NCBI RefSeq assembly: GCF_008935055.1
Contig: NZ_CP043028.1
Location: 447,501-511,500 of the forward strand
Direction: 5' to 3'
Origin: Pseudobutyrivibrio xylanivorans
GTDB lineage: Bacteria > Bacillota > Clostridia > Lachnospirales > Lachnospiraceae
DNA length: 64,000 nt
Under the pieces are notes generated by a model. The model was not told where the DNA came from. It was given only the letters and a program-made list of their open reading frames with translations, and did no database searches. Position numbers and translations under genes: made by a program. How positions within the stretch are numbered: the stretch's first letter is position 1; each line of letters opens with the position of its first letter. Below are positions 15,428 to 48,811 of the stretch, in pieces.

Positions 15428-15517
15428 TTTGACTGTTACGCTTACAAGCCTGATGATTTCTCCGCTCGACTAAATGTCTCGCTTAAGAAATATCAGAGCT
15501 TGACAGCTACAGTCAAA
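15428..15517 (-). ncRNA. Structured element, copy 1 (between mrp and the cyclophilin gene)
   Basis: On the minus strand a long hairpin: outer stem TTTGACTGT/ACAGTCAAA, a GC/GC pair between two internal loops, CAAGC/GCUUG, a single bulged U, CUGAU/AUCAG, a variable stem and an apical unit GCGAGAC-AUUUA-GUCGAGC. In the apical unit GAC/GUC and GC/GC enclose two adjacent G-A mismatches, a tandem sheared pair typical of RNA. It lies 60 nt after the mrp stop. A fragment of the element's head (GTTACGGCTACAGG) is repeated just outside it at about 15411-15424. See copies 2-4 for the covariation. Confidence 0.65.
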
Positions 15518-15576
15518 ATTTATAGCCTACCAGCTCATTTAAAAACTGTTTGTTAATTTAATATTTAATTATCTAA

Positions 15577-16455
15577 TTATTTAATTGTAGTTTCTACGTT
15601 CTCGAGGATTGTCTTGGCACCCTCGAGGTATTCGTTATTTACATCAAAGATGCGACCTGCATCTGCTGCTGTAGCAAGTGCACGATCCATAGGCATCTTG
15701 CCAATAACTGGAAGCTTGAGCTCTGCTGCCACTTCGTCGATATGGCTCTCTCCGAAGATTTCAATCTTCTTGCCACAGTCAGGGCACTTAATATAAGAGT
15801 AGTTTTCAACAAGACCAAGCACTGGAATGTGCATCATATCAGCCATGTTGTAAGCCTTCTTCACAATCATCTGAACAAGCTCCTGAGGGCTTGTAACGAT
15901 TACGATGCCGTCTACTGGAAGTGACTGGAAGCATGTAAGAGGAACATCACCTGTTCCTGGTGGCATATCTACAAAGAGATAATCAAGCTCACCCCACTCA
16001 ACATCTGTCCAAAACTGCTTTACAACTCCTGCGATAACTGGACCTCTCCAAACTACTGGAGACTCCTCATCATCAAGGATAAGATTGATTGACATAATCT
16101 TGGTGCCATCCTCTGCAACCTCTGGAAGCATAATGCCCTCAGCGTTTGCTGCAGCTGGACCGTGTACACCAAACATCTTTGGAATAGATGGACCTGTAAT
16201 ATCTGCGTCAAGAACACCTACCTTGTATCCTGCTCGAGCCATAACGCCAGCAAGTGAAGATGTGACCATTGATTTACCAACGCCACCCTTTCCAGATACA
16301 ACGCCGATGACATGCTTTATATTTGAATTAGCATTTGGTGCTTCAAGAAAAGCTGTATTTCTAATGCCTGCCTTTGAAGCCTCTGCTGAAGGGCATCCCT
16401 CGCAAGAGCCTCTTGAGCAAGAGCTGGCTGAAGCACATGAACTATTATCTGCCAT
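15577..16455 (-). CDS. mrp: Mrp/NBP35-family P-loop ATPase, Fe-S cluster carrier
   Basis: A 292-residue protein of the Mrp/ApbC family, which carries and delivers [4Fe-4S] clusters to apoproteins in the cytoplasm. The deviant Walker A GKGGVGKS (about residue 55) and the MinD-like nucleotide-binding region DYLFVDMPPGTGD are present. The cluster-binding CPDCGKK is near residue 225. The N terminus is Cys-rich (CASASSC, CSRGSCEGC), as in NBP35-type proteins, instead of the DUF59 domain of other Mrp proteins. It is the first gene before the cyclophilin gene, preceded by a 370-nt region with DnaA boxes. Confidence 0.92.
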   Translation of the reverse strand: MADNSSCASASSCSRGSCEGCPSAEASKAGIRNTAFLEAPNANSNIKHVIGVVSGKGGVGKSMVTSSLAGVMARAGYKVGVLDADITGPSIPKMFGVHGPAAANAEGIMLPEVAEDGTKIMSINLILDDEESPVVWRGPVIAGVVKQFWTDVEWGELDYLFVDMPPGTGDVPLTCFQSLPVDGIVIVTSPQELVQMIVKKAYNMADMMHIPVLGLVENYSYIKCPDCGKKIEIFGESHIDEVAAELKLPVIGKMPMDRALATAADAGRIFDVNNEYLEGAKTILENVETTIK

Positions 16456-16627
16456 TATTAAACCTCCTATTTGTTGATAACTTAATTATTTACACTGCCA
16501 ATTAGTATAACATATTCTCACACATTGTACTCGTACATTTGTAAATACAATGGCTCAATTATCAAAATTCGTTGAAAAATCAGTGTTTATCGGAATTGTT
16601 GTTACATGCACCAACTTATCAACCAAG

Positions 16628-16697
16628 TTATCCACAATTTCCACAATTCAAAATTTTTAGTTGAGGATAAGTTAATCTAATAAACAACTTATCCACA
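16628..16697. promoter_or_regulatory. Cluster of DnaA boxes in the mrp/exporter intergenic region
   Basis: Two perfect DnaA boxes (TTATCCACA) are at 16628-16636 and 16689-16697 on the plus strand. A one-mismatch box lies between them on the minus strand (TTATCCTCA, about 16664-16672), and a weaker TTATCAACC just upstream. The 370-nt divergent region 16456-16825 is AT-rich and otherwise holds only the two promoters. No dnaA or dnaN gene is nearby, so this is more likely a DnaA-titrating or DnaA-regulated site than the origin. Confidence 0.5.
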
Positions 16698-16825
16698 TTT
16701 TCCCCTTTTATTAACAAATATTCACTAAATAACCTCTATTAATTGATAATATACCCTTAAAAGAGAGTTTTTATTTTTCCCTATCTTAGTTATAATGAAG
16801 TGAATAATTAAACCGAGGTATACAA

Positions 16826-17602
16826 ATGACAGACACAAAAAATGTTCTATCCTTCGCTGTGGAGCTGGGTGATATTTTGCTCAGAAACGGAGCTGAAGTA
16901 TATAGAGTTGAGGATTCGGTCCTCGCCATTTTAAATTCATATGATATTACAGACTGCGATGTATATGTTCTCAGCAATGGTATCTTCGCCAGTGCGGATG
17001 AGACCACAGTTCACGCAAGTTCTATGATAAGACACGTTCCTATGTATCCAATGCACCTTGGCAGAATTGCTGCTCTTAACAGTCTTTGTCGTGAGGTTTG
17101 TGCGAAGACAATTTCAATCGAGGATGCATGGGGCAAGCTTGAGGATTGTAAGAAGCTCCCTGGCTACAATCTTCCTGTAATGATTATTGCCACAGGAATC
17201 GGTTGCGGTGGCTTTGCCTACCTTTTTGGCGGCACCGCTTTAGATGGTATCATCGCTACAATCGTCGGCTGCCTGCTTAGAATATTCCTTCATTTTGAGA
17301 GCAAAATGAACAATTCCAAGACCGTCACAAACGTTCTGGGAAGCATCTTTATAACTATCCTTGCTATACTTTTTTCAGCATCAGGGCTTCATATCCACTC
17401 CGATAAAGTCATCATCGGTGGAATAATGCCTTTAGTTCCTGGAATTCCGTTGACAAACAGTATCCGCGATTTCATCAATAGCGATTATCTTTCAGGCTCC
17501 ATCCGCCTTATTGATGCACTGCTAACCGCATTTTGTATTGCAGTTGGCGTTGGTATCGTAATCACAATTGTTCAACTTATTGGTGGAGGTGCTTATTTAT
17601 AA
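16826..17602 (+). CDS. ThrE-type threonine/serine exporter, large subunit
   Basis: A 258-residue DUF1212/ThrE-family membrane protein. A conserved soluble N-terminal part (DILLRNGAEVYRVEDSV, about 14-30; SNGIFASADETTVHASSMIR, about 50-70) is followed by five predicted helices (about 120-255), including a glycine-rich MPLVPGIPLTNSIRDF loop. It pairs with the next gene, whose start codon overlaps its stop by one base (TAATG), so the two are translated in tandem. The split into two subunits is normal in Firmicutes. Serine or threonine efflux is inferred from the family. Confidence 0.88.
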   Translation: MTDTKNVLSFAVELGDILLRNGAEVYRVEDSVLAILNSYDITDCDVYVLSNGIFASADETTVHASSMIRHVPMYPMHLGRIAALNSLCREVCAKTISIEDAWGKLEDCKKLPGYNLPVMIIATGIGCGGFAYLFGGTALDGIIATIVGCLLRIFLHFESKMNNSKTVTNVLGSIFITILAILFSASGLHIHSDKVIIGGIMPLVPGIPLTNSIRDFINSDYLSGSIRLIDALLTAFCIAVGVGIVITIVQLIGGGAYL

Positions 17603-18057
17603 TGTATTACATGTATTGCATAGAATTTATTGTTAGTATGATTGCCACAATCGCATTTGCAATTGTGTTTTCAGCTCCAAGGTCTGAGCTTTTCTACTGT
17701 GGCTTATCCGGTGCCATCGGATGGATTTTTTACTATCTGATTTGGACTTCTATGGATGCTGCTACTTTAGGAAATGTTGTTGGTGCATTAGCACTTACCA
17801 TTTTCTCAAGAATCTTTGCAGCCAAAAGAAAAAAGCCCGTCACCGTTTACCTTATTTCAGGAATCTTCCCTTTGGTACCCGGTGCAGGCATTTACTACAC
17901 ATCTTATTATTTAATTATGAATGATATGGTTTCCTTCAGCCAATACGGCTTGCAAACCATAAAAACTGCCGGTGCAATCGTAATGGGAATCATCCTTAGC
18001 ATGGCTTTCCCACAGAGCTGGTTTAATAAAGCTTTTGCACCTTCCGATCGTAAGTAA
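17602..18057 (+). CDS. ThrE-type threonine/serine exporter, small subunit
   Basis: A 151-residue protein of the ThrE_2 (DUF3815) type with four predicted helices and the family loop GIFPLVPGAGIYYT near residue 95. The start at 17602 overlaps the upstream stop. The last 35 nt overlap the convergent GH2 gene, so the two transcripts can pair at their 3' ends. Confidence 0.87.
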   Translation: MYYMYCIEFIVSMIATIAFAIVFSAPRSELFYCGLSGAIGWIFYYLIWTSMDAATLGNVVGALALTIFSRIFAAKRKKPVTVYLISGIFPLVPGAGIYYTSYYLIMNDMVSFSQYGLQTIKTAGAIVMGIILSMAFPQSWFNKAFAPSDRK

Positions 18058-19777
18058 TCAGGCCATTGAGCTCGTCTTCGATATCAGTTGCCTGAGTAAA
18101 TACAGCTCCAGCAAGTCCCTCTTCCTCGAGGGACTTTATTTTTGCCATCAGTTCATCATATGCATCCTGCAAATCCTTCTGGTGCTCATATTTCTTATAG
18201 CCATAAATAGCATCACGCTTCACATGATTTCCTACCTTCATCGAAAATCCACCATACTCGGAGATTACATAAGGTCTCTGCCCCTGCTTAACCTTTAATT
18301 CTTCAAAATAAATATGCTCTGAGAACACATCTCCACAGTCCTCGTGGAACCAACCTGAGGCCGCATCGAATGGTCTTGTATTATCAATCTTCATAGCATA
18401 TTCCAGGCAATCCGCTGCATCGAACTGTCCCCAACCCTCGTTAAACAGGCACCACTGCCCTAGACAAGGAACACTGATAAGCTGTTCAATCATCTCCTTG
18501 CACTCCTGATGCCATACCTGCTTTGACTTTTCGGTGTTGCGTCCAGTAAATCTAAGAAATAGTCTGTTTTTATCCTTGGCATTTCCAAATGGACGAACCA
18601 CTGTAGGAATATTACAAATCATATTCATATCATACTTGGTACCGCCGTTTACAATATCCTGCCAAACAATCATTCCAATCCTGTCGCAGTGAAAATACCA
18701 GCGCATAGGCTCTAATTTGCAATGCTTTCTAATCATATTGAAGCCAAGACTCTTTAGGGTCTCAATATCATTAATCATTGCATCGTCAGATGGCGGCGTC
18801 ATAAGACTCTCCGGGTAATATCCCTGATCCAAAACGCCATTCATAAAGTAAGGCTTGTGATTAAGAGTCAATCTTGGAATTCCATTTTCATCAGACGCCA
18901 CGCCAAAATGTCGCATTGCAAAATACGACGAGAATGCATCCTTGCCGTATTCAATGTTGATAAAGTACAGATTTGGCTCCTCTGGTGTCCATAACTTGTA
19001 GTTTGCAAGTTTGACGGTGATATATAGCTTATCATCCTGTATCTGGTCTACCTGTACTTCTTTTATTAAATCCTGATTAGACGAGTCAATTTTCACCTGA
19101 CCCTTCTTCTCAGAGACTTTCATAATGAGTTTCAGACAATGCTTGTCGATGTCTGGTATCATTATAAGCTTCGTCACATATACTTCTGGAACCCATTCCA
19201 TCCAAACGGTCTGCCAAATACCACTCTGTGCACTGTACCACATGCCACTTGGTTCCAAGGATTGCTTGCCTCTAGCATAGCCAATCCTGTCAGTATAATC
19301 ACGAACCTTAACCTTCAGTTCATTATCACCTTCAACCACGTAGTCTGTAATATCAAAAGTAAATGAAGTATAACCGCCCTCATGCGCCCCAATATTAATA
19401 CCATTCAGGGACACATGAGCAATCTGATCCACCGCGCCAAAATGAAGAAGAAGTCGCTTTGTCTTCTTTAACCTGTCCATATTGAAATGCCTTGCATATT
19501 CCAAGGTCTCCTCAGGAAGAAGCACATGTCCATCCGTTCCAGAAAGCTTTGTTTCTGGAGAAAATGGCACCTCTATATCACCTGACGAAACCACTCTTCC
19601 TTGGCCACTGAGTATACGATAGTTCCAGGTACCATTCAGGTTGATATAGGACTTTCTTTGAAGCTGCGGGCGTGGGTATTCCTGCAGGCCAGTGTATTTA
19701 AAGTCTGTAGAGAGCTCATATCTAGCCGCATTTTTATCAGGCTTAGAAATAGCTGAAAGCATGTCCTTCCAATTCAT
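18023..19777 (-). CDS. Glycoside hydrolase family 2 enzyme (beta-galactosidase/beta-glucuronidase type)
   Basis: A 584-residue GH2 enzyme: an N-terminal jelly-roll sugar-binding domain (about 40-195), an Ig-like domain (about 200-285) and a TIM barrel (about 290-584). FNMIRKHCKLEP and the acid/base Glu in CLFNEGWGQFD (about 445) are present, as is the nucleophile Glu in VISEYGGFS. With no signal peptide it acts on short oligosaccharides in the cytoplasm. It is shorter than classic LacZ (about 1000 residues). The substrate cannot be told from sequence alone. It follows the MATE gene, with a hairpin in the 45-nt gap. Confidence 0.88.
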   Translation of the reverse strand: MNWKDMLSAISKPDKNAARYELSTDFKYTGLQEYPRPQLQRKSYINLNGTWNYRILSGQGRVVSSGDIEVPFSPETKLSGTDGHVLLPEETLEYARHFNMDRLKKTKRLLLHFGAVDQIAHVSLNGINIGAHEGGYTSFTFDITDYVVEGDNELKVKVRDYTDRIGYARGKQSLEPSGMWYSAQSGIWQTVWMEWVPEVYVTKLIMIPDIDKHCLKLIMKVSEKKGQVKIDSSNQDLIKEVQVDQIQDDKLYITVKLANYKLWTPEEPNLYFINIEYGKDAFSSYFAMRHFGVASDENGIPRLTLNHKPYFMNGVLDQGYYPESLMTPPSDDAMINDIETLKSLGFNMIRKHCKLEPMRWYFHCDRIGMIVWQDIVNGGTKYDMNMICNIPTVVRPFGNAKDKNRLFLRFTGRNTEKSKQVWHQECKEMIEQLISVPCLGQWCLFNEGWGQFDAADCLEYAMKIDNTRPFDAASGWFHEDCGDVFSEHIYFEELKVKQGQRPYVISEYGGFSMKVGNHVKRDAIYGYKKYEHQKDLQDAYDELMAKIKSLEEEGLAGAVFTQATDIEDELNGLITYDRKVQKLY

Positions 19778-19795
19778 AATCTCCTCCTTCTCCAG

Positions 19796-19819
19796 AGGCT
19801 TCCCCTCGAGGGGAAGCCT
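19796..19819 (-). terminator. Hairpin between the MATE and GH2 genes
   Basis: AGGCTTCCCC/GGGGAAGCCT with a TCGA loop is a very stable 10-bp stem. No T-tract follows it on the minus strand; the GH2 ribosome binding site follows instead. It may be a partial terminator or processing site setting the MATE:GH2 ratio. Confidence 0.5.
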
Positions 19820-19821
19820 TG

Positions 19822-21183
19822 TTATATTCTGACTTCAGATTGTTTTCTCGCTACCCACGTTCTATATACGATTACTAGGCATATACTATGGACACTGAGT
19901 GTCAACAGCCAGCTGCCTGGGTATGAGAAGAAAAGCACATCCTGTGTATGATGAATCTGAAAAAATGTTGCAATCCAAAGCAAGCGTGTGGCACAAGCGC
20001 CAAGCAGAGATACAATCATAGGAACTGTAGAGTGCCCCAATCCTCTAAGTCCTCCAGTGAGCGTATCCATAATTCCACACAGAGCATAGAAACAGCAAAC
20101 CCAGAAAAGACGAAGGGTTCCAGCTGCAATTGCATCCGCACTGTCTGTGTATATTCCAAGTAGCTGTGGGGCAAAACCGTAAGCCAGGTTGCCCATAACA
20201 AGCCCCACAACTATAACAATACCAAGTGTCTCAAATATTACCTTCTTAACTCGTTTCTCATTTCCAGCACCATAGTTTTGTCCGACAAATGTCACTGTTG
20301 TCTGAGATACAGAGTTCATAGAAATATATACGAAGCCTTCAATGCTGCCTGCCGCTGAAGAGCCGGCAATTACAGCAGTACCGAAAGAATTAATTGCTGA
20401 TTGAATAACTACGTTTGAAAGTGAAAATACAGTGCCCTGTATTCCAGCAGGAAGGCCAATCTTAATTATTCTTTTAAGAATTCGTTTATCTATTGATATT
20501 TGGGGCAATTCCAGCTTCAAGCAACCTTCCTGTCTCATTAGGAAGCCCACCAATAATCCACAGGAAATATAGTTGGAAGTAACGGTGGCTATTGCAACAC
20601 CAGCCACGCCCATCTTAAATACTATTACCAGCAAAAGGTTAAATAATACATTTATTACACCTGCTATTGTCAAAAACATCAATGGATGTGAGGTGTCTCC
20701 AGAAGCTCTGAGTATAGCAGCAAGGAAATTGTATAGCATTACCGCAGGCATAGCCATGAAGTAAATTCGCACATAGAGAGCTGCCAAATCAATAACCTCC
20801 ACTGGTGAGCCCATCAACTCAAGCATAGGTCGTGCACCAAACAAACCAATAAATATTAAAATAACACCGCAAATTATTGAAAATGCAGTGCTGGTATGTA
20901 CAGTTTTCTTAACATCTTCATTCTGGCCTGCCCCATAGAACTGAGCAGCGCAAACATTGGCACCAACGGACATACCAATGAAAAGATTGGTCATGAGATT
21001 TATCAATGAATTGGTGGAACCGACAGCCGCAAGGCTGGCTTCACCTGCGAATCTTCCCACCACAATAACGTCAGCTGCATTAAAAAGAAGCTGTAACACA
21101 CCTGACAGGATAATAGGAATTGTAAAAATAATTAGCTTCCCCAAGAGAGGGCCGTGAGTCATATCGAGCTTTTGAGTTTTCAT
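19822..21183 (-). CDS. MATE-family multidrug/metabolite efflux pump
   Basis: A 453-residue protein with twelve hydrophobic segments and MATE-type features: GPLLGKLIIFTIPIILSG at the N terminus, the VGRFAGEASLAAVG segment and GQNYGAGNEKRVKK in the second half. Family members export cationic compounds in exchange for sodium or protons. ATG 21183 is preferred: an in-frame TTG at 21231 lies inside a 30-bp inverted repeat and would add 16 residues before the conserved N terminus. It is transcribed with, or just ahead of, the GH2 gene. Confidence 0.9.
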   Translation of the reverse strand: MKTQKLDMTHGPLLGKLIIFTIPIILSGVLQLLFNAADVIVVGRFAGEASLAAVGSTNSLINLMTNLFIGMSVGANVCAAQFYGAGQNEDVKKTVHTSTAFSIICGVILIFIGLFGARPMLELMGSPVEVIDLAALYVRIYFMAMPAVMLYNFLAAILRASGDTSHPLMFLTIAGVINVLFNLLLVIVFKMGVAGVAIATVTSNYISCGLLVGFLMRQEGCLKLELPQISIDKRILKRIIKIGLPAGIQGTVFSLSNVVIQSAINSFGTAVIAGSSAAGSIEGFVYISMNSVSQTTVTFVGQNYGAGNEKRVKKVIFETLGIVIVVGLVMGNLAYGFAPQLLGIYTDSADAIAAGTLRLFWVCCFYALCGIMDTLTGGLRGLGHSTVPMIVSLLGACATRLLWIATFFQIHHTQDVLFFSYPGSWLLTLSVHSICLVIVYRTWVARKQSEVRI

Positions 21184-21200
21184 AGTTTGATTATAACCAA

Positions 21201-21230
21201 TGAGGGCAGGTCTTAAAAGACCTGCCCTCA
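21201..21230. repeat. Perfect 14-bp inverted repeat upstream of the MATE gene
   Basis: TGAGGGCAGGTCTT and AAGACCTGCCCTCA are separated by two bases. The T-run lies 5' of the arm on the minus strand, so it does not look like a terminator. Its place 18 nt before the MATE start suggests an operator or a leader hairpin. Confidence 0.6.
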
Positions 21231-21259
21231 AAAAATTAAAGAAAGAAATTATAGGAAAA

Positions 21260-21283
21260 ATCTAAACTTATGTAAGTATAGAT
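21260..21283 (-). terminator. Terminator of the butyrate operon
   Basis: ATCTATACTTA/TAAGTTTAGAT (one mismatch, 2-nt loop) followed on the minus strand by TTTTT, 30 nt after the etfA stop. Confidence 0.7.
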
Positions 21284-21313
21284 ATTGCCCCTAGGTTATT
21301 TTGAAGCCCTAGA

Positions 21314-22360: not shown

Positions 22361-22378
22361 TCTATTTGCCTCCTCTTA

Positions 22379-23161
22379 TTAAATTACATGCTTCTCTTTA
22401 AGCTTGTTAACGATGTACTCTACTGACTCCTTAGGGTCAAGAGCAACCTTCTCGCCTGCACCCTTACGAACCTTGTCAGATGCCTTTGCGATCTTTGTTG
22501 GAGAACCAGCAAGACCGATGTTTGCATCATCAAGATCTGTAAGATCATCACGGCCCCATACAGTAACTTCCTTCTCATATGCATCAAAAATTCCGCCTGG
22601 AGTCATGTAACGTGGCTGATTAAGCTCTGAAAGAGCTGTAATTAAGCAAGGCATCTGTGCCTTAACCTCATGATATCTATCCTCATACTGACGCTTAACG
22701 ACAACGCTGTTGCCCTCAACCTTGATATCCTCAGCATAAGAGATAACTGGAAGTGAAAGGTGCTCAGCGATCTGTGGACCTACCTGAGCTGTATCACCAT
22801 CGATAGCCTGACGACCTGTGATGATGAGATCATAGTCAAGCTTCTTAACAGCAGCTGCTACTGTTGAAGATGTTGCCCATGTATCTGCGCCACCAAGACG
22901 TCTATCTGTAACAAGAACTGCCTCATCTGCACCCATAGCGAGAGCTTCACGAAGCATATCATCTGCCTTTGGAAGACCCATAGTTACAACTGTAACCTTT
23001 GCGCCTGTCTCATCCTTGATTCTAAGAGCAGCCTCAAGACCTGCCTTATCATCTGGGTTCATAATTGCGAGCATTGAAGCTCTATCAAGAGTTCCATCTG
23101 GGTTGAACTTTACGCCGCCCTTTGTGTCAGGAACCTGTTTAATACATACTACGATATTCAT
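22379..23161 (-). CDS. etfB: Electron transfer flavoprotein, beta subunit
   Basis: A 260-residue protein with the EtfB pattern: MNIVVCIKQVPDT at the N terminus, DKAGLEAALRIKDETGAKV, and the signature region ITGRQAIDGDTAQVGPQIAE near residue 115. It binds the bifurcating cofactor and AMP/FAD in complex with EtfA and Bcd. It lies 39 nt after bcd and 18 nt before etfA, in one operon. Confidence 0.96.
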   Translation of the reverse strand: MNIVVCIKQVPDTKGGVKFNPDGTLDRASMLAIMNPDDKAGLEAALRIKDETGAKVTVVTMGLPKADDMLREALAMGADEAVLVTDRRLGGADTWATSSTVAAAVKKLDYDLIITGRQAIDGDTAQVGPQIAEHLSLPVISYAEDIKVEGNSVVVKRQYEDRYHEVKAQMPCLITALSELNQPRYMTPGGIFDAYEKEVTVWGRDDLTDLDDANIGLAGSPTKIAKASDKVRKGAGEKVALDPKESVEYIVNKLKEKHVI

Positions 23162-23200
23162 GTATTTAATCTCCTTTTATTTACACGATAATAAACAATC

Positions 23201-24370
23201 TTACTTGAGCATTGCGCCAGAGATAACAAGTCTCTGAACCTCAGATGTACCTTCGTAGATTTCTGTGATCTTAGCATCACGCATCATACGCTCAACATCG
23301 TACTCTCTTGTGTAACCATAACCACCGTGAAGCTGTACAGCCTTTGTAGTAACAGCCATAGCTGCCTCAGCTGCGAAAAGCTTAGCCTCAGCTGCCTCGA
23401 TAGAGTAGCTTGTCTTGTGATCCTGTGTGTAAACGTCCTTTGTGCAAGCAGCGTTGTATACAAGATACTTAGCAGCATCCATACGAGCCTTCATATCAGC
23501 AAGCTGGAATGCTGTGTTCTGGAATGCAGCGATTGGACGACCAAACTGCTTTCTTTCCTTTACGAACTCGATTGTTGCATCGATTGAGCCCTCGCCAATA
23601 CCAAGAGCCTGAGCAGCGATACCAATACGTCCACCATCAAGTGTGTGCATTGCGATACCAAAGCCCTTGCCTCTAGGTCCAAGGAGGTTCTCCTTTGGAA
23701 TGCGGCAATCCTGGAAGATAAGCTCGTATGTAGAAGAAGCACGGATACCCATCTTCTTCTCCTTTGTACCGAATGTAAATCCAGGAGTATCCTTCTCTAC
23801 GATGAATGCAGAGAACTTCTTAGACTTACGTCCCTTAGCATCTTCAACAATATCTGTAACAGCAAATACGATATAAATATCTGCCTCTTTACCGTTTGTG
23901 ATGAAGCACTTTGAACCATTAAGTACCCAAGAATCGCCATCTTCGATAGCTCTTGTCTGAGCACCCTGTGCATCTGTACCAGCACCTGGCTCTGTAAGAG
24001 CGAATGCACCAAGCTTCTTACCACTTGCAAGTGGAACTAAGAACTTCTGCTTCTGCTCTTCTGTACCATATGTAAGAATAGGATCGCAGCAAAGTGATGT
24101 ATGTGCAGAAACGATAACACCTGTAGTACCGCAAACCTTTGAAAGCTCCTCTACGCACATAACGTATGTAAGAACGTCACAGCCCTGTCCGCCGTACTCC
24201 TTTGGTACAGGAATACCCATGAAGCCGTACTTCATCATCTTCTCTACGTTCTCGCGTGGGAACTGCTCTGTCTCATCAATTTCCTGAGCCATTGGCTTAA
24301 CTTCGTTCTGAGCGAATTCTCTGAACAGCTGTCTAGCCATCTCATGCTTCTTATCTAATGTAAAATCCAT
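23201..24370 (-). CDS. bcd: Butyryl-CoA dehydrogenase (short-chain acyl-CoA dehydrogenase)
   Basis: A 389-residue acyl-CoA dehydrogenase that reduces crotonyl-CoA to butyryl-CoA with an FAD cofactor. Family landmarks: [19 protein letters not shown] (substrate/FAD binding, about 123-142), [30 protein letters not shown] and the catalytic-base region [13 protein letters not shown] at the C terminus. Its place with etfB and etfA identifies it as the butyrate-pathway enzyme rather than a beta-oxidation enzyme. Structured element copy 2 lies in the 267-nt gap upstream, toward hbd. Confidence 0.95.
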
Positions 24371-24422
24371 GATCTGAATCTCCTTAATTTATTGTAGAAA
24401 TCATTTCTTTAGTTATTCTCTC

Positions 24423-24507
24423 GCCTGTTACACTTACAAGCCTGATGAATTCTCCGCTCATCTAACACGATTCGCTTGAGAATTATCAGAGCTTGTCAGC
24501 TACAGGC
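24423..24507 (-). ncRNA. Structured element, copy 2 (between hbd and bcd)
   Basis: The fold is that of copy 1 with changed sequences: outer stem GCCTGT/ACAGGC (copy 1 has GACTGT/ACAGTC), middle stem GAGAATT/AATTCTC on the two arms, and apical unit GCGAAUC-GUGUUA-GAUGAGC in which AUC/GAU replaces GAC/GUC while the two G-A pairs stay. It lies 131 nt after the hbd stop and 53 nt before the bcd start. A second hairpin-like stretch with GATGTGCG motifs lies at about 24560-24605. Confidence 0.65.
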
Positions 24508-24637
24508 TATCTAATCATATAGTAATGATTTCAATTTAATTTACATATCCACTAACGGGAAGACGCACATATTTAAGATTTGCTTCGCAAATGGATGTGC
24601 GTCGTGGCAATACCTTTGCTTCGCAAAAATATTGCTC

Positions 24638-25510
24638 TTACTGAGCATCTACTGCTGTCTTAGTACGGTCTGCGTTGTATACGTAGAATCCCTTACCAGA
24701 CTTAACACCAAGGTTACCACCACGAACCATCTTACGAAGAAGTGGGCAAGCACGATACTTACTGTCGCCTGTCTCGTTGTAAAGAACGTCCATGATTGCA
24801 AGGCAGATATCAAGACCGATGAAATCGCCGAGCTCAAGTGGTCCCATTGGGTGGTTAGCACCAAGCTTCATAGCTGCATCGATACCAGCGATATCAGAAA
24901 CACCTTCCATCTTGATGAAAGCAGCCTCGTTGATCATTGGGATAAGGATACGGTTTACTACGAAACCAGCAGCCTCGTTAACCTGTACAGGAGTCTTTCC
25001 GATTTCCTCAGAAATCTTCTTGATAGCATCTACTGTCTCAGCAGGTGTGTTAACACCAGCGATAACCTCAACAAGCTTCATTCTGTCAGCTGGGTTGAAG
25101 AAGTGCATACCAATCATTGGACGGTTAAGACCGTTACCAATCTCTGTGATTGAAAGTGAAGATGTATTTGAAGCGAAGATGCATTCAGGCTTAGCGATTT
25201 CATCAAGCTCCTTGAATGTTGTCTTCTTAACTTCCATGTTCTCGAAAGCAGCCTCAACGATAAGGTCACAATCCTTGCAAAGGTCTTCCTTAAGACCTGG
25301 AGTAATCTTAGCGAGGATAGCATCTACTGCTGCCTGCTCCATCTTTCCTTTTTCAACAAGTCTTGCATAACCCTTAGCAATCTTGTCCTTACCGCCTTCA
25401 GCCCACTCCTGCTTAATATCGCAAAGAGCTACTTCATAGCCATCAACCATAGCAAATGCCTTAGCAATGCCCTGGCCCATTGTACCTGCGCCAATTACGC
25501 CTACCTTCAT
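24638..25510 (-). CDS. hbd: 3-hydroxybutyryl-CoA dehydrogenase
   Basis: A 290-residue enzyme that reduces acetoacetyl-CoA to 3-hydroxybutyryl-CoA. The Rossmann motif GAGTMGQGIA is at residues 7-16, the catalytic His in GMHFFNPADRMKLVEVI near 140, and the C-terminal helical domain holds GFVVNRILIPMINEA and NHPMGPLELGDFIGLD. It sits between thl and bcd. The 225-nt gap before it and the 267-nt gap after it both hold copies of the structured element. Confidence 0.95.
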   Translation of the reverse strand: MKVGVIGAGTMGQGIAKAFAMVDGYEVALCDIKQEWAEGGKDKIAKGYARLVEKGKMEQAAVDAILAKITPGLKEDLCKDCDLIVEAAFENMEVKKTTFKELDEIAKPECIFASNTSSLSITEIGNGLNRPMIGMHFFNPADRMKLVEVIAGVNTPAETVDAIKKISEEIGKTPVQVNEAAGFVVNRILIPMINEAAFIKMEGVSDIAGIDAAMKLGANHPMGPLELGDFIGLDICLAIMDVLYNETGDSKYRACPLLRKMVRGGNLGVKSGKGFYVYNADRTKTAVDAQ

Positions 25511-25559
25511 TTTATATTCCTCCTGAATAATTTAGTCCGCTCCCTTTACTCTTTCTCTC

Positions 25560-25643
25560 GGTTGTTACGGCTACAAGCCTGATAATTTCTCTGCTCGACT
25601 ACATGTCTCGCATGAGAAATATCAGTGCTTGATACCTACAACC
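25560..25643 (-). ncRNA. Structured element, copy 3 (between thl and hbd)
   Basis: Outer stem GGTTGT/ACAACC, inner pair GG/CC where copy 1 has GC/GC, then CAAGC/GCUUG with a bulged A (U in the other copies), CUGAUA/UAUCAG, GAGAAA-type stem, and the apical unit GCGAGAC-AUGUA-GUCGAGC. Each altered stem keeps pairing, which supports selection on the fold. It begins 92 nt after the thl stop and ends 49 nt before the hbd start. Confidence 0.65.
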
Positions 25644-25735
25644 TACTTAAAATTATTTGGAGCTCACTTAATATTTTTAGTTGATTGAATAATATAAACT
25701 ACTGTATGTAGTCTTATTGTCTTAACGATTAAGCT

Positions 25736-26938
25736 TTATGCTTCATATTTCTCTACAATAGTAGCGCAACCCATACCGCCACCGATGCAAAGAGTAGCAA
25801 GACCCTTCTTGTACTCTGGGTTGTGAAGCATATCGTAAATAAGTGTTACAAGGATACGAGCACCAGAAGCTCCTACTGGGTGACCAAGTGCGATAGCACC
25901 ACCGTTTGGATTAAGCTTCTTAAGGTCGAAGCCGAGGTCCTTACCAACTGCTACTGACTGAGCAGCGAATGCCTCGTTTGCCTCGTAAACATCGAGATCC
26001 TCAATTGTAAGACCAGCCTTAGCAAGAGCCTTCTTTGTTGCTGGAACAGGACCAACACCCATGATTTCTGGAGCACATCCGCCAAGAGCACCAGCTACGA
26101 AAGTAACGAGTGGCTTAACACCAAGCTCCTTAGCCTTCTCCTCAGACATAACAACGAGTGCTGCAGCACCATCGTTGATACCTGAAGCATTACCAGCTGT
26201 AACAACTCCGTCTGGATAAAGAGCCTTAAGCTTAGCAAGACCTTCGATTGTTGTACCAGGTCTTGGGCCTTCATCTGTATCGAAAATAACTGTTTCCTTC
26301 TTCTTCTTGATTTCTACAGGAACGATTTCATCCTTGAATGCGCCAGCTTCAATAGCTGCACAAGCCTTGTTCTGAGAAGCTACTGCGAACTCATCAAGCT
26401 CTTCTCTTGTAAGACCCCACTGCTCAGCTACGTTGTCAGCTGTCTTAATCATGTGGTAATCATTGTATGCATCCCAAAGAGCATCCTTTACCATTGTATC
26501 TACTAAAGCACCCTGGCTTGCGCTTGGCCATGTCATTCTGTAACCATAACGTCCGTTAGGAAGTGCAAATGGAGCTAAAGACATGTTCTCCATACCACCT
26601 GCTACTACTACATCTGCATCACCTGCGATGATCATCTGTGCAGCCTGGTTAACACAGTTAAGACCAGAACCACAAACAACGTTTGTTGTAACAGCTGTTG
26701 TCTCGTTTGGAAGACCAGCCTTGATAGCTGCCTGACGAGCAACGTTCTGTCCAAGACCTGCCTGGATAACGCAACCCATGTATACGTGCTCAACATCCTC
26801 TGGCTTGATTCCAGCTCTCTTAACTGCCTCCTTGATTACGATGGCACCTAAGTCTGCTGCTGGTGTAGTACTAAGTGATCCACCCATAGTACCAATCGCT
26901 GTTCTACATGCGCTAGCAATAACTACTTTTTTTCCCAT
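25736..26938 (-). CDS. thl: Acetyl-CoA acetyltransferase (thiolase)
   Basis: A 400-residue biosynthetic thiolase that joins two acetyl-CoA into acetoacetyl-CoA, the first step to butyrate. The nucleophile Cys is in [12 protein letters not shown] (about 90), the His in [13 protein letters not shown] (about 355), and the second Cys in [10 protein letters not shown] (about 385). It is the first gene of the operon. A Rex-like operator lies about 120 nt upstream. Crotonase (crt), needed between hbd and bcd, is not in this window. Confidence 0.96.
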
Positions 26939-27075: not shown

Positions 27076-27083
27076 ACCATCTC

Positions 27084-40305: not shown

Positions 40306-40308
40306 AGC

Positions 40309-42661: not shown

Positions 42662-43988
42662 TTCTTTCTCGCTCTCTTAACCAACGTTTTCTTTTACTAT
42701 ATTGCAAATAATATTTGTAGTGATTGTAGGACCATAAATGGCTTTTAATTCTGGACTGTGTCGCATAAAGCATTACCGAACCCTCAAACCATCCCGAAAT
42801 ATTCACTACATGTCTTTTTCCAAAAATCCTTTCCCTGAGTTCCAAGACAACTCTTCGCCAGAAATGATTGTCATCAAAATCCTTTTCTGTAAGCTTTGCA
42901 GCAAGCAGTGCATTATCGTAATCAATCACATCATCGGAGAAGTGCAGCTGACCAAATACCTCTGCCTCCTGACGAGTAGGCTTGGACATAAATCTAAATA
43001 ATGCAGCCTCAATTTCCTTCTGAGAAGCTGGATTATTGATCAATCCACTTATTTCTTCAAAGCTATTATGCAAAGCAAATAGCTCATCCATATAATCGCT
43101 GATAATGCTCTCCAGCTGATTCATAAAATCAATCTGGCTCTGGGAAACCTCAGATAAAACTGGAACCATCTTATCTGACTCTCTTCTATATCTAACTGTC
43201 ATGCCATGTGGTGCAGAAAAAATGCACTCAAACAGGCAATTGTTGAAAAGCACCTTATTCTTAAGGCCCGTCCGTGGACCAAATAAAAATGAATGATACT
43301 GTTGCTCATCAGCAGAAGCTGGAATCTCGTAAAGGCCATAATAATAACCCTCAACCGGCTCCTGCACGCCTAGGTGCTCACGGAACACATTCAGACTCTG
43401 CTGGATTGAACCAACCCAGCCGCTGTCCACAACAGCTATTTTTTCTTTTGCTCCAAATCCCATTTCATCAAGATATTTGAGAGCGTTTGTAAATTCATTT
43501 TCTGAGTGCTGGGCAAGTACCCTTATGAAATCTTCATCACTCTTTAAAAGATTACTTACTTCGCCAAGTCTGTGTCTTGGTATCTGCTCATCCTTCTGAA
43601 CCTTTAGGTAAGCCGCAAGCCTATCCACAAACTGTGGCTTATCCTCTTCAGGAATGCCTGCACGATTTATCACAGTGGTAGGCGTAACATCCACACCGCC
43701 CAAGGTGATATATGATAAAGCCTGCTTTATATCTAAATGATAAAGTGGAACTCGTAGTGATAACCTAGAAACACACAGATACTTACACTGAATATTCAGA
43801 TCAAACTTCTTAACATATTTTTCAGCGATTACGTAATATAGATACGCATCTCTAGCCAAGAAGAACAGAGTACTTATGCCCCTGTCCATTGCATCATTAA
43901 GCACATGTAACACAAAACTGTTCAGTGCTGGCGCAAAAATCTTCTTACCAGTATGAAAAATAATATCTTGCTCTTTTTTCACTAACAT
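42648..43988 (-). CDS. Polysaccharide-cluster protein related to the C-terminal module of COG5610 proteins
   Basis: A 446-residue cytoplasmic protein. FFLARDAYLYYVIAEKYVKKF (about 40-60), YLCVSRLSLRVPLYH and IAVVDSGWVGSIQQSL (about 205) match the second half of the gene at 28562-30706 (FLSRDGDTIK, WSRKAA, LLVDIGWAGSGAI), but the HAD domain is absent. Two members in one cluster suggest a shared, possibly enzymatic, role in making or modifying the polymer. The start and the stop of the GT2 gene are 5 nt apart. Confidence 0.65.
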   Translation of the reverse strand: MLVKKEQDIIFHTGKKIFAPALNSFVLHVLNDAMDRGISTLFFLARDAYLYYVIAEKYVKKFDLNIQCKYLCVSRLSLRVPLYHLDIKQALSYITLGGVDVTPTTVINRAGIPEEDKPQFVDRLAAYLKVQKDEQIPRHRLGEVSNLLKSDEDFIRVLAQHSENEFTNALKYLDEMGFGAKEKIAVVDSGWVGSIQQSLNVFREHLGVQEPVEGYYYGLYEIPASADEQQYHSFLFGPRTGLKNKVLFNNCLFECIFSAPHGMTVRYRRESDKMVPVLSEVSQSQIDFMNQLESIISDYMDELFALHNSFEEISGLINNPASQKEIEAALFRFMSKPTRQEAEVFGQLHFSDDVIDYDNALLAAKLTEKDFDDNHFWRRVVLELRERIFGKRHVVNISGWFEGSVMLYATQSRIKSHLWSYNHYKYYLQYSKRKRWLRERERNEKT

Positions 43989-43993
43989 AACTC

Positions 43994-44803
43994 CTAAGCA
44001 GAGAATCCATTTCTGATTCCAAAAGCTATTCTATTTGGAACCATCCAAACCATAATAGGCTTCACTACATAATGGAGCTCTCGCCATGGGTTTAATCCCA
44101 ATTTCTTAAAACCATTCCATCTGATGACAACTTCATCAAGCTGATCAGGTAATGTTCTGCGATTGTAGCTATCCTTTGTCTCGCGATATCCAAGGACATT
44201 TTCCTGAAGGTTGTATCCCTTCACTCCTGAAGCTACCAGATTCATAAACAATTGGTAGTCCTCTCCTCTGCGAGGCTTTTCCTCTAAACCATAAGGCTTA
44301 TCCATGGACAATACGCTCTTTCGAAACATAATTGTTGGATGAGCATATGGCTGGTATTTCAGGAAGTCTCTTCTTGAAGGCTTCTTTGGATACTTGCGCA
44401 GACCATAAATCTGATCTGAATCATCCATCAGTAGTAAATTACCACCAACAAAACCATACTCTGGGTGATTCTCCAAAAACTTATACTCACACTCTAGTCT
44501 GAATGGAGCACTAATATCATCCGCATCCATTCTTGCCAGATATTTGCCCTTGGCAATCTCTACCATCTTGTTGAGGCCGTAGGCCAAACCATGATTCTTT
44601 TCCTCTCGGATGAAAACAATTCTTGAATCATTTTCTTTATATTCAGCAATGATGCTCTTAACATCATTGCTTGAACCATCATCAAATATAATTAGCTCAA
44701 AATCCCTAAAGGACTGATCTAGGATGGATTCAATGGCCTTTCGTAAATGCGATTCATCGCAATTATAGACCGGAAACAGTACACTTATTGAAGGCATCTT
44801 CAT
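43994..44803 (-). CDS. Family 2 glycosyltransferase
   Basis: A 269-residue inverting GT2 (GT-A fold): ISVLFPVYNCDESHLRKAIES, LIIFDDGSSND, the metal-binding DxD in LARMDADDISAPFRLE (about 94), and EDYQLFMNLVASG as the catalytic region. There is no membrane helix. It adds a sugar to a lipid-linked acceptor in the cytoplasm. Its start overlaps the end of the GT4 gene by 41 nt. Confidence 0.92.
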   Translation of the reverse strand: MKMPSISVLFPVYNCDESHLRKAIESILDQSFRDFELIIFDDGSSNDVKSIIAEYKENDSRIVFIREEKNHGLAYGLNKMVEIAKGKYLARMDADDISAPFRLECEYKFLENHPEYGFVGGNLLLMDDSDQIYGLRKYPKKPSRRDFLKYQPYAHPTIMFRKSVLSMDKPYGLEEKPRRGEDYQLFMNLVASGVKGYNLQENVLGYRETKDSYNRRTLPDQLDEVVIRWNGFKKLGLNPWRELHYVVKPIMVWMVPNRIAFGIRNGFSA

Positions 44804-45944
44804 AGACCTTTCTCATCACTTTTTCTGATTCTGATTTTTCAAAAGAAGTGACTGACTTTCTTATTTTTTCTCTGTTGTATCTCTTGTGCTCACGCTTGTA
44901 GGAATACATCTGGGCAATGGCGTTGGCATAAGCATCCACAGTATCCTCTCGAACAAGAAGACCATTTTTCTCATGCTTGATATATTCTTTGGAGCCTCTG
45001 TTGCTTGATGCAATTACTGGGAGTCCAGTGAACATCGCTTCAAGAGGAGCCATTCCAAGCCCTTCCCTAATAGAAGGAAATACCATAACATCAGCAGCTC
45101 TTAAGAACTTCCTGATGTCTACTTCATATCCATAAAATCTGACGTTATTCTCTAAACCGTTTTGCTTAACGTACTTCTTTAACGCACATTCCTTACAGCC
45201 ACTACCGATAATTCCATAAATAATGTTTTGACCATCAGGATTATTGTTTTGGAAATACTGAATAGTTTCGATAATCTTTTTCTGATTCTTGTTCTTTCTG
45301 ATTTCTCCAACACTGATTACGAAGAAGTCCTCTTTCTTGATTCCAAGCTTTATACGTTCCTTGATCTTGTCCTCTTCGTCAGTCAGACAATAATATTCTG
45401 AATCAACTCCCTCACCAGGAATGCGATACACATAATCCGCACACATGGTCTTTGCAGCGCTCTCATCCTCGTGATTGATAGTGACAATTGCATTTGTATT
45501 CCTGCTTAGGAAATACTCAGCCATATAATAGATGCAATTGCGAATCTTCGAAGCGCCGCTGTAGAAATGAAATCCGTGGGCCGTATAAATAACGTAAACG
45601 TCCTTCAATCCCATGCAGGCAATTCTCGCAACCAAACCGCCAATCGGTGTGTGGCAATGAATGATATTTATTTTTTCTTTCTTTATATACTTTCGCAGAG
45701 CAATAATTGCTCGCGTATTAGCACTTATATCTGCTAATGATTGAGTGATTGGAATATCCTGATACTTAACACCCAATTCTTCCAGAGTGCTTTCACCTTC
45801 TTCATATACAACATTTTTGGAATTTGATGCATAGTGGACTTCCACATTCATCTTTTCCAACAACTCAACATTTTGTTTCTCGAACTTCGATAAAAAACCA
45901 TATACCGACGAAACAATCAATGCTTTCACTTGCTTTTCTCCCAT
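44763..45944 (-). CDS. Family 4 glycosyltransferase
   Basis: A 393-residue retaining GT4 (GT-B fold): KALIVSSVYGFLSKFEKQN, IIHCHTPIGGLVARIACMG, VISVGEIRKNKNQKKIIET (about 210) and the donor-binding VFPSIREGLGMAPLEAMFTG (about 300). It resembles the EpsD/CapM group that builds the first sugars of capsule repeats. It lies directly after the LCP gene. Confidence 0.93.
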   Translation of the reverse strand: MGEKQVKALIVSSVYGFLSKFEKQNVELLEKMNVEVHYASNSKNVVYEEGESTLEELGVKYQDIPITQSLADISANTRAIIALRKYIKKEKINIIHCHTPIGGLVARIACMGLKDVYVIYTAHGFHFYSGASKIRNCIYYMAEYFLSRNTNAIVTINHEDESAAKTMCADYVYRIPGEGVDSEYYCLTDEEDKIKERIKLGIKKEDFFVISVGEIRKNKNQKKIIETIQYFQNNNPDGQNIIYGIIGSGCKECALKKYVKQNGLENNVRFYGYEVDIRKFLRAADVMVFPSIREGLGMAPLEAMFTGLPVIASSNRGSKEYIKHEKNGLLVREDTVDAYANAIAQMYSYKREHKRYNREKIRKSVTSFEKSESEKVMRKVYEDAFNKCTVSGL

Positions 45945-47345
45945 TTATATCTCGTCTAACACTTCCTGTATTCTCGCCTTTGCGTTATCAATGTCATCCT
46001 GATTTGGATCCATTACATATACGCTCTTTTTCAGTGAGTAGACGTTATTATACTCACCAGTCCCGCCAACGCTTATTTTTTCAATGTTCCACTCTCCTGG
46101 ATTTGATAACTGAAATGAAACCAAATCAGCAATCTCTTCAGAAGATAAATCTGTGGCAAAGGTGCCATCACATTTTCTAAGAATCTCTCCGTAATTCTTT
46201 AAAATAGCCTTTGAAGTCAACTTCTGTACAACAGACTGAATAACGTTCATCTGGTTTACACCTCGCTGAACATCGCCTCTTGCAAAGGAATGTCTCTCGC
46301 GGACAAATGCCAATGCCTCCAAGCCGCTAAGCTCGTTATCACCCTTTTTGAAATGACCAATGTTTTCTACATCAAAAGCATAATCAGACCAAACTGTAAT
46401 TCCGCCCATAGCATCAATCAAGCCCTCGAAGCCGCTGTAATTAAGCTTGAAGTAATGGTCCATCTTTATGCCATAAAGCATCTCCATTGTCGCCTCAGAA
46501 ACCTCAATTCCGTATATTCCTGAGTGAGTAAGCTTGTCCTTAACTCCGTTGGAAATAGATAATGGAACATAATAGTCTCTAGGTGTTGACACAAGGAGGA
46601 TGTGCTTTGTACCTGGATTAACAACCGCAATAATATTTACATCTGAACGGCTTGTCACTGAAATGTGCCCCCAGGTATCCTTGCCACTGATATAAACAAC
46701 AAATGGCTTCTCTGATGAAATAACATTTGAAGCTTCAACCTTCTTGGAAACCTTAATCTCGTTAACTAAACGAAGGTTATCCTTCTCCTCAAGCATCTCC
46801 ACATAAGATGTATTCAAGACAGCTCCGGCACATTCCTCATTAATTAGGCCTTCAACAGATGACATTGGACTATCGTAGGTACTTGTAATGATTGAATATT
46901 TGTCCAGCTTCTTAGCAAGCTTCTTGTCAGAAATATCTTCAGAAACTCCAACTATTTCATTTTCCAGATCCGCAATAGACTCAGCCTCAGAATCCTTTAA
47001 AACATAAACGCCGTAGCTTGTTATCTCCGTAGTCTGGTTTGCAATAGTTTTCAGTGCTTCCTCACTGTCTAAATAGAAATAAATTCCTTCTATATTTCCT
47101 ACGATTGAAAGCACGATGAGCAATATTCCAAGTACTCTATATGCAGTCTTTTTATGGAGCAGGAAATAACCGCCCGCACCAAAAAGAAGCAGGATAAGTA
47201 AGACTATAACCACGCAATGTAAAACGGGAAGTATAGAGATACTCATCATGTGTCTAAGCAATACAACAAGTAAGGTTCCAATAGTAATTGCACACGCACA
47301 CAAAAGAACCTTGAGTATAACCTGTTCTCTCTTATTATTTTTCAT
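45945..47345 (-). CDS. LytR-CpsA-Psr (LCP) family polymer-to-wall ligase
   Basis: A 466-residue membrane protein. Three N-terminal helices (about 15-85) precede an extracytoplasmic part with a substrate-binding-like segment (about 105-200), then the LCP domain (about 225-385): KHILLVSTPRDYYVP, MEMLYGIKMDHYFKLNY, LIDAMGGITV and LEALAFVRERHSFARGDVQR, with the conserved Arg and Asp residues that bind the lipid-pyrophosphate. It attaches teichoic acid or capsule to peptidoglycan. It is the first gene of the glycan cluster, so the cluster's polymer is probably wall-bound. Confidence 0.93.
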   Translation of the reverse strand: MKNNKREQVILKVLLCACAITIGTLLVVLLRHMMSISILPVLHCVVIVLLILLLFGAGGYFLLHKKTAYRVLGILLIVLSIVGNIEGIYFYLDSEEALKTIANQTTEITSYGVYVLKDSEAESIADLENEIVGVSEDISDKKLAKKLDKYSIITSTYDSPMSSVEGLINEECAGAVLNTSYVEMLEEKDNLRLVNEIKVSKKVEASNVISSEKPFVVYISGKDTWGHISVTSRSDVNIIAVVNPGTKHILLVSTPRDYYVPLSISNGVKDKLTHSGIYGIEVSEATMEMLYGIKMDHYFKLNYSGFEGLIDAMGGITVWSDYAFDVENIGHFKKGDNELSGLEALAFVRERHSFARGDVQRGVNQMNVIQSVVQKLTSKAILKNYGEILRKCDGTFATDLSSEEIADLVSFQLSNPGEWNIEKISVGGTGEYNNVYSLKKSVYVMDPNQDDIDNAKARIQEVLDEI

Positions 47346-47720
47346 TGTTCTACCCTACTATTAAATTTTTATTTTTGTGTTGGAATGAAAAAACCGCATC
47401 ACAAAAGATTGAGATATATCTTGATAGAAATATCCGCAGAAATGGATTAATTCTCCCTTTAAATCCAAACGTTAGGGATTATAACATACTGCCCAATATT
47501 TTAAAACCGGTATTGTTTAAAATGTACACCGGTGGCAAAAACGGATAGGTTATGGCAAGATTGAAACTGTGGCATAAAATGCCGCAATCACATACCATTT
47601 CTGACATTCTCAGCATATAACACTTTATGATTTCGCTAAATGTTCACGTAATCTTCGCATACAATAATTGACAAAGTGATATAATACCCCTAACAGTAGT
47701 ATTTGTGGAGTGTAATAATT
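47346..47720. promoter_or_regulatory. Divergent intergenic region between the LCP and PAS/GAF genes
   Basis: A 375-nt region with no convincing gene. It holds an extended -10 on the plus strand, TGATATAAT at 47677-47685, about 36 nt before the start at 47721. The minus-strand promoter of the glycan cluster must also lie here but is not clear by eye. Confidence 0.5.
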
Positions 47721-48695
47721 ATGGGGAAAGAGCTTTACAGAGATTTAAAAAAATTGGCTTCGGCCTCTCCACTTCCGTGCGCTATTCTTTCAGTGGAGAA
47801 AACAAAAGACGGTAACTGTGGTGAAGTAAACTACTTTGCAATCAATGAACCATTCAAAAGAAGCTTCTATTGTTTACTTCAGCAAACAAACAATATAAAC
47901 AGTATCAGTTACGAGCAATTCGACAGCTTCGTTGAAGGCAAGTCATACGCTTCCTTCCTTGCGAAGGAGCCAAAGTTCGAAGATATAGTGTTCAAGGCAG
48001 CTTGGCATGGGGAGCCAATCAGAACCTACGTTGACACTACTAGAGCTTACGGCAACTGGACTGAAATCATTCTCATGCCAATAAACTGCGAGCATGAGGA
48101 CAATGTTTCCTATTGTCAGTTCATGTACACACTAAACAAAAGCATGGATCCTGACAAATTTGCCATGGTTTCACCTGAGATTTCAAGCTTCGTAATTAAG
48201 ACCTGCCTTGAATTGAACGAGGATAGGGATTTTATAAAGAATCTTAATGATGTAGCCAGGGAAATCCGTGAATACACCAACTCCTTCGCTTGTAGCCTTA
48301 TTTCTATAGACAGGGAGATGCAGACCTTCAAAATCGTCAGCGAAAGTGTGCTAAATGATATGTTTAGCATAAAAGAGATTTTTAAGGATTTGCCTTATGA
48401 AATTATCGAGTCTTGGGATGAATTGATGGAAGGCACAAACTCTATCATCATTAAGGATGAGAGTGATATGCACCATTACGAAGAGAAATCTCCGTTTTGG
48501 GCTTCAACTCTTCGACGCGACAACGTGAAGAGCCTATGCCTAGTGCCTCTCGTAAGACACAAAGAAACTATCGGATATTTGTACATTGCAAACTTCGACA
48601 TTGCACGGACTTCACAGTACAAAGAAACCCTGGAGCTGATATCTGGATTCATATCCACCGAATTAGCCAGCTACCAGTCGACAAAAGCACCTTAA
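47721..48695 (+). CDS. PAS/GAF-like sensor protein without an output domain
   Basis: A 324-residue cytoplasmic protein. Residues about 1-150 have a PAS-like layout (SPLPCAILSVEKTKDG near the start, FEDIVFKAAWHGEPIRT), and 165-324 look like a GAF domain (DFIKNLNDVAREIREYTNSF, LCLVPLVRHKETIGYLYIAN). Similar segments precede GGDEF domains in related bacteria, but here the protein ends after the GAF part. ATG 47721 is chosen because GGAG lies 10 nt upstream; an in-frame TTG at 47703 lies ahead of that site. It may bind a partner or a small ligand. Confidence 0.6.
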   Translation: MGKELYRDLKKLASASPLPCAILSVEKTKDGNCGEVNYFAINEPFKRSFYCLLQQTNNINSISYEQFDSFVEGKSYASFLAKEPKFEDIVFKAAWHGEPIRTYVDTTRAYGNWTEIILMPINCEHEDNVSYCQFMYTLNKSMDPDKFAMVSPEISSFVIKTCLELNEDRDFIKNLNDVAREIREYTNSFACSLISIDREMQTFKIVSESVLNDMFSIKEIFKDLPYEIIESWDELMEGTNSIIIKDESDMHHYEEKSPFWASTLRRDNVKSLCLVPLVRHKETIGYLYIANFDIARTSQYKETLELISGFISTELASYQSTKAP

Positions 48696-48721
48696 AATGC
48701 AATTGCCCACAGCATAACAAA

Positions 48722-48811
48722 AGCCTCTAGTTACGCCTACAAGCCTTAGGTCTCTCTGTTCGACTACATGTCTCACTGAGAGACCTAAGAGCTTGATGGC
48801 TACTAGAGGCT
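48722..48811 (-). ncRNA. Structured element, copy 4 (between the PAS/GAF gene and deoD)
   Basis: Outer stem AGCCTCTAGT/ACTAGAGGCT (10 bp), CAAGC/GCUUG with a bulged U, a CUUAGGUCUCUC/GAGAGACCUAAG stem, and apical unit GUGAGAC-AUGUA-GUCGAAC, where U-A replaces C-G at the second pair. It lies 39 nt after the deoD stop in the same orientation as copies 1-3, and 27 nt after the stop of the convergent plus-strand gene. On the plus strand it is followed by ATTTTTAT, so it may also terminate that gene. Confidence 0.65.

Follow-up and report, generated by a model that had tools for sequence, protein, structure and literature searches.

Our results demonstrate that the four structured elements found in the window (the whole stretch of 64,000 nucleotides of Pseudobutyrivibrio xylanivorans DNA that was analysed) represent just a few copies of a repeat spread over the whole genome. 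The inner domain that they share, module A, is a genus-restricted, interspersed and nested repeat family that lies beside unrelated genes, and its structure and its status as a family are firm. With a probability of about one half, we take module A to be a transcribed, modular family of untranslated region (UTR) hairpins that would act at mRNA ends and boundaries; its transcription and its function we infer from the DNA sequence. The earlier reading of the four sites was incomplete, and module A is not a regulatory RNA with few defined targets.

The first-pass annotation had placed all four copies on the minus strand, 3' of a minus-strand gene, and its sequences, stems and coordinates proved correct throughout. 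Copies 1 to 3 are moreover followed closely downstream by the next minus-strand gene, and each sits within additional outer hairpins. Copy 4, unlike copies 1 to 3, lies between convergent genes. The features are as follows, in window positions and with bit scores from the covariance model R1.

15428..15517, minus strand: module A copy 1 (97.9 bits), outer stem GACTGT/ACAGTC, flanked by an mrp-like gene (15577-16455) and a cyclophilin gene (14860-15381)
15402..15537, minus strand: partial outer A element enclosing copy 1, read from the sequence; 5' part TGAGCTGGTAGGC (15537-15525), 3' part TGTAGCCGTAACTAGCGGA (15422-15404)
24423..24507, minus strand: module A copy 2 (89.8 bits), between hbd (24638-25510) and bcd (23201-24370)
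24397..24532, minus strand: outer hairpin of copy 2, read from the sequence; GAAATCATT (24532-24524) paired with AATGATTTC (24405-24397)
24549..24637, minus strand: structured stretch D, upstream of copy 2, GAGCAATATTTTTGCG...TCTTCCCGTTAGTGG; also in the same gap of loci L089 and L092
25560..25643, minus strand: module A copy 3 (98.7 bits), between thl (25736-26938) and hbd
25536..25666, minus strand: frame of copy 3, read from the sequence; UGA-GCUCC (25666-25659) ... GGAGC-GGA (25543-25536)
48722..48811, minus strand: module A copy 4 (106.5 bits), in the loop of a terminator-like stem (AGCCTCTAGT/ACTAGAGGCT, then T's at 48722-48719), after a PNP-family gene (48850-49572) and convergent with a GAF-domain gene (47703-48695)

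Copies thus sit among the butyrate-pathway genes thl, hbd and bcd. The partial outer element around copy 1 has the layout of other nested copies and is followed by an AAGGAG ribosome site (15396-15391); the frame of copy 3 is followed by AGGAGG (25524-25519) and then by the hbd start (25510). At the hbd-bcd site of copy 2, the outer stems in relatives are different ones. Model R1, which was trained on 23 copies of this genome including the four in the window, gave those four 90 to 107 bits; the next matches in rank within the window were antisense shadows at the same sites (39 bits or less) and one weak match of 18 bits.

The same rod was obtained from each copy, in agreement with the proposal of one fold with differing stems and fixed loop bases. 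From the variable outer stem P1 (paired in all four copies) it runs through a fixed G-U/A-C step, a small loop in which one A faces GUA, a helix of 3 bp and a two-by-two loop; then come CAAGC/GCUUG, a single bulged U, a long variable helix and, at the apex, a unit with tandem G-A. The unpaired bases are kept across 140 rows: the A in 100%, the bulged U in 97%, GUA in 98, 99 and 94%, and the tandem G-A in 86 to 91%. On the minus strand, folding energies had z scores of -6.3 to -9.6 for the four copies, and none of 200 shuffles was as good. The plus strands fold nearly as well (z of -6.9 to -10.4), the minus-strand energy being the lower in all four, so that folding energy alone cannot pick the strand.

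Covariation of the stems, proposed from the four copies, was strong in wider alignments. In a MAFFT alignment of the 23 copies, made without reference to structure, paired cells make up 97.1% (76.8% on average after shuffling; 0 of 500 as high), and the covariation score is 0.557, compared with 0.163 when shuffled and at most 0.102 when slid. At a single orthologous gap, between mrp and ppiA, both sides have changed at 24 of 31 pairs (16 distinct rows; model-fitted alignment). The minus strand had been favored as the RNA on the basis of the tandem G-A pairs, and this choice is now backed by sense orientation (see below) and by the count of mismatched cells: among 4,289 cells in the 140 rows there are 155 G-U and 19 A-C, although these cells are not mutually independent and alignments A3 and A4 were fitted to the model. 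The 140 rows derive from 150 model matches by omission of 5 duplicates and 5 antisense rows, and one of them is a shortened second reading of a copy; the counts are the same (155 and 19) when the antisense rows are kept. A constraint on DNA, whether on either strand, double stranded or single stranded, would be expected to give about as many G-T as A-C cells. The constraint therefore looks as though it acts on RNA of the predicted strand.

The 15-base core occurs 74 times in the genome, compared with none for a reversed-pattern control. With R1, at least 137 copies were found at E of 0.01 or less when 150 of 1,210 candidates were scored, a lower bound that includes the copies used to train the model. 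Module A was present in 28 of 29 Pseudobutyrivibrio genomes, with at least 1 to 66 matches each, and in none of 32 genomes outside the genus (at most 66 candidates scored per genome in both searches). A second model found it in 2 of 348 Lachnospiraceae genomes, both Pseudobutyrivibrio; the remaining 346, which cover 332 further genera, had none. Here 11 candidates per genome were scored, a depth at which weak relatives could escape. Spread beyond the genus is accordingly disfavored. Eight of 80 hbd loci have a match, and all eight are named Pseudobutyrivibrio. The hbd protein of the window is 100% identical to that of P. ruminis DSM 9787.

The first-pass annotation knew no name for the pattern, and Rfam likewise gave no match at the four sites: in the whole window Rfam 15 returned only tRNA and DUF3800-XI, neither of them there, and an E-value search around copy 4 gave 17.6 bits at best against a threshold of 45. 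There were also no Rfam matches in 16 related loci. Interspersed structured repeats as such are already known (PMC3446304, PMC3733652, PMC2229807, PMC2267715). The bcr1-bcr18 repeats of the Bacillus cereus group are described as high-copy intergenic repeats, many of them in UTRs or within operons and some with conserved RNA structure (PMC3446304). By description, module A resembles them in these traits; its near-unlinked outer stem, its self-nesting and its exchange with a second module are not mentioned for bcr in the part of PMC3446304 used here. ERIC, Correia/NEMIS and RUP are small intergenic mobile repeats whose transcripts carry structural motifs tied to mRNA regulation (PMC2229807); they belong to other taxa than module A, and the likeness is again one of description, sequences having been compared via Rfam only.

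The surroundings of the 137 copies are consistent with a role in mRNA. Between tandem genes, 88 copies are sense and 17 antisense (88 of 105, p about 1e-12); 28 lie in convergent gaps, 3 in divergent gaps and 1 in a gap of undetermined type. Convergent and divergent gaps are about equally frequent in the fetched stretches (50 versus 46), which were picked around matches and whose gene neighbors come from a greedy ORF caller. Among copies between minus-strand tandem genes from 2 to 3 Mb, six of nine, a small sample, follow the direction of the genes and not that of replication. Tandem sense copies start a median of about 32 nt past the upstream gene, and a ribosome site with a start lies within 75 nt downstream in 41 of 81 tandem copies. 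A T-rich end is found in 16 of 28 convergent copies compared with 10 of 60 short-gap tandem copies (Fisher p of 0.0003). The ribosome-site and T-end comparisons, and that of stems and interiors below, cover the 127 of 137 copies that have anchor words, the other 10 being absent from them.

A subset of copies are predicted intrinsic terminators, with a stem and a T tract at the transcript end. At the PNP gene that precedes copy 4, an ordinary terminator lies within 200 nt in 24 of 26 relatives (coding-sequence control, 2 of 26). The sole terminator candidate at copy 4 is the stem loaded with module A, of 9 bp followed by TTTT, with a 70-nt loop. Within operons, frames of the form UGA-stem ... 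stem-GGA that end at a ribosome site number 36 in about 580 kb, compared with 0 in a reversed control; 29 overlap a model match, 4 hold unusual A forms, 1 holds module B and 2 are hairpins with neither. Loci of other Pseudobutyrivibrio, many of them chosen for carrying A or B, gave 43 frames versus 1 in the control (122 loci). The frame as an older, wider feature is disfavored, as 67 loci of other Lachnospiraceae gave 3 versus 2 in the control.

Taken as a UTR hairpin family, module A would be an RNA domain with a defined structure, about 75 nt long and so far confined to Pseudobutyrivibrio, that belongs to mRNA UTRs and is carried in the loop of a short outer hairpin specific to each site. 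Where transcripts end, this outer hairpin would be the intrinsic terminator; within operons it would often be the frame UGA-stem ... stem-GGA, immediately ahead of the next ribosome-binding site. With its fixed internal loops, the rod may be bound by a cellular factor or resist nucleases, and may thereby protect upstream mRNA 3' ends and divide operon mRNAs into segments of unequal stability while leaving the next ribosome site free. Module A might spread either because the inner domain inserts itself in the loops of hairpins or because copies exchange inner domains through gene conversion. Support for the UTR reading comes from the covariation, the G-U excess, the fixed unpaired bases, the sense orientation, the placement relative to ribosome sites and T-rich ends, the terminator of copy 4 and the frames. 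An analogy that favors the suggested protection and segment stability is bcr3: genes co-transcribed with it had longer mRNA half-lives, a link that its authors treat with caution because association with housekeeping genes may account for it (PMC3446304).

Presence and absence of module A is polymorphic at orthologous sites. It occupies 18 of 28 mrp-ppiA gaps, 17 of them in sense, with L287 having an antisense copy only; in L274 a second, antisense copy lies beside the sense one. Nine of the 28 gaps lack it, and L286 has only a mini-hairpin, from which it follows that module A is dispensable at this gap. At the PNP site of copy 4 it is present in 1 of 27 genomes, this one alone. This dispensability argues against the UTR reading, as do the 17 of 105 tandem copies that are antisense, the antisense copies in L287 and L274, the folding of the plus strand and two head-to-head pairs that look like mobile DNA.

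The inner domain is nearly unlinked from the outer stem. Twenty pairs of copies have interiors that are identical to 95% or more; between the members of these pairs, 41% of outer-stem positions differ, against 2.8% in the P3 arm, a figure that the identity threshold itself depresses. The 19 copies that make up these pairs all have a fully paired outer stem, and two pairs of copies combine identical interiors with unlike outer stems. Whole elements occur within elements at five or more sites, and an older half-element encloses copy 1. Six A copies contain a nearly identical insert, C, roughly 70 nt long, which in all six follows CGAA at one and the same position and points the same way (near 392096, 1469172, 2206432 and 2635423 on the plus strand and 1341846 and 1263804 on the minus strand of this genome); the outer stems of the six differ. 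Stretch D ends in TCTTCCCGTTAG or a similar word and lies once beside A and once within an A copy (in the window, near 2267605 in this genome, and in the hbd-bcd gap of L089 and L092).

Module B (GGCAAGCGCGAGCAGG...CCTGCGGGAGC) is another structured module that occurs across the genus, at sites of the kinds that A occupies. A word from it is present in 24 of 29 genus genomes and absent from the control; no Rfam match to B was found in the loci scanned, and its alignment folds less clearly (70 G-U and 33 A-C cells in 28 sequences). In the thl-hbd gap, the window, L089, L091, L093, L095 and L096 carry A, whereas B, a distinct G-rich structured module, occupies the same frame in L094, L097, L100 and L105. 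For the hbd-bcd gap, the carriers of A are L091, L094, L096 and the window, and those of B are L095, L097, L099 and L105. Places of B include L094:5850, L095:6934, L097:5867 and 6932, L100:5867, and L105:5850 and 6932 and, in this genome, L188, L196, L219, L221 and L223.

We put forward tentatively that A, B and the inserts C and D may be plug-in RNA domains that lodge in the loops of pre-existing mRNA hairpins (of terminators, of frames ahead of ribosome sites and of each other) and build nested, interchangeable UTRs. The unit that spreads would then be the loop domain and not the hairpin, so that the outer stem would stay site specific. If this is true, module A would represent an RNA-shaped mobile or converting element that is directed to hairpin loops and belongs to a previously undescribed kind; we recognized no earlier description of a near-unlinked, self-nesting, module-exchangeable inner domain in the literature searched. 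With over 100 natural replicates in one genome, near-identical inner domains on unlike stems, occupied and empty gaps and module swaps, this structured RNA family, itself strongly supported, offers a rare natural experiment on the gain of UTR structure by bacterial mRNAs, on segment-wise mRNA stability and on whether hairpin loops can be targets of small elements.

The main rival, which we regard as rather unlikely, is a MITE-like selfish DNA repeat, a DNA hairpin moved now or formerly by a transposase, whose RNA fold has no function for the host and whose persistence near gene ends reflects the lack of harm from inserting at such places. Its high copy number, its presence and absence at orthologous gaps, its nesting and head-to-head pairs, and the same insert C in six A copies would all suit such an element, whereas the sense bias, the G-U excess and loops fixed for RNA-like pairing would not. 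By eye, no target duplication is obvious where the occupied L279 and L281 and the empty L285 nearly share the upstream flank. The Y1 transposase (PF01797), the only type searched for, occurs in 8 of 19 searched genomes, out of the 29 of the genus, and is absent at E of 0.001 or less from the element-rich genomes G007, G011, G012, G014, G016 and G018, which hold at least 51 to 66 elements each. This distribution and the form of the element also disfavor the GTAG REP/RAYT system. REPs are palindromes of 20 to 40 bp with an unpaired GTAG tag at one end (PMC3733652). Like them, module A is extragenic, palindromic, present in high copy and sometimes found in head-to-head pairs, and a GTA or GTAG step adjoins its outer stem too; its rod, however, is about 85 to 90 nt long, and almost every one of the 140 rows has the G and T of this GTA step base-paired. 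A phage, plasmid or viral origin is likewise disfavored: copy 4 had no match in plasmid or phage collections, and of 18 viral stretches that share a 16-base word, none had a model match.

It is improbable that module A is a cis-regulatory RNA, in which a metabolite or a regulator protein would bind the domain and control termination or translation of the neighboring genes. The fixed internal loops and the placement in terminators and before ribosome sites would fit such a role, and the HMP-PP aptamer, embedded in a terminator and associated with thiamin genes (PMC6478431), offers a precedent for a structured domain inside a terminator hairpin. Unlike that riboswitch as described in PMC6478431, module A adjoins unrelated genes, often outside terminators. 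The downstream genes scanned (20 of 63, with a Pfam match in 19) encode HSP90, IlvD, UxuA, TatD, NrdR, PurN-like, PurE-like, glycogen phosphorylase, BipA, GcpE and others, purine genes being three of the twenty; these families are unrelated and so point to no single pathway, as a riboswitch would require, and many copies lie solely at the 3' ends of converging genes. Already disfavored, and very improbable, is an origin of the covariation in DNA repair, by which template switching between hairpin arms would copy mutations without selection on RNA: one-sided changes are few compared with 138 cells changed on both sides (23-copy alignment) and outer stems diverge quickly with pairing kept, but under this process G-U and A-C counts should be equal, and the internal loops, the bulge and the tandem G-A, which are mismatched and fixed, should have been erased.

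Some smaller features accompany the family in this genome. The 3' end GCTTGTARNCGTAAC occurs in tandem copies spaced 24 to 36 bp apart at 1287315-1287400 (L020), 2205529-2205567, 2206502-2206541 and 2890863-2890901; L020 has three copies, each followed by a T-rich stretch. The head-to-head A pairs stand side by side (331333/331423 and 390215/390309) and resemble the BIME arrangements of REPs. Three Y1 transposase genes (587618-587974, 2118809-2119165 and 2219133-2219489), equal in score, match length and frame length, are probably copies of one IS200-like element. The DUF3800-XI RNA of the window (RF02975; 60361-60407, minus strand; 52.7 bits) is separate from module A.
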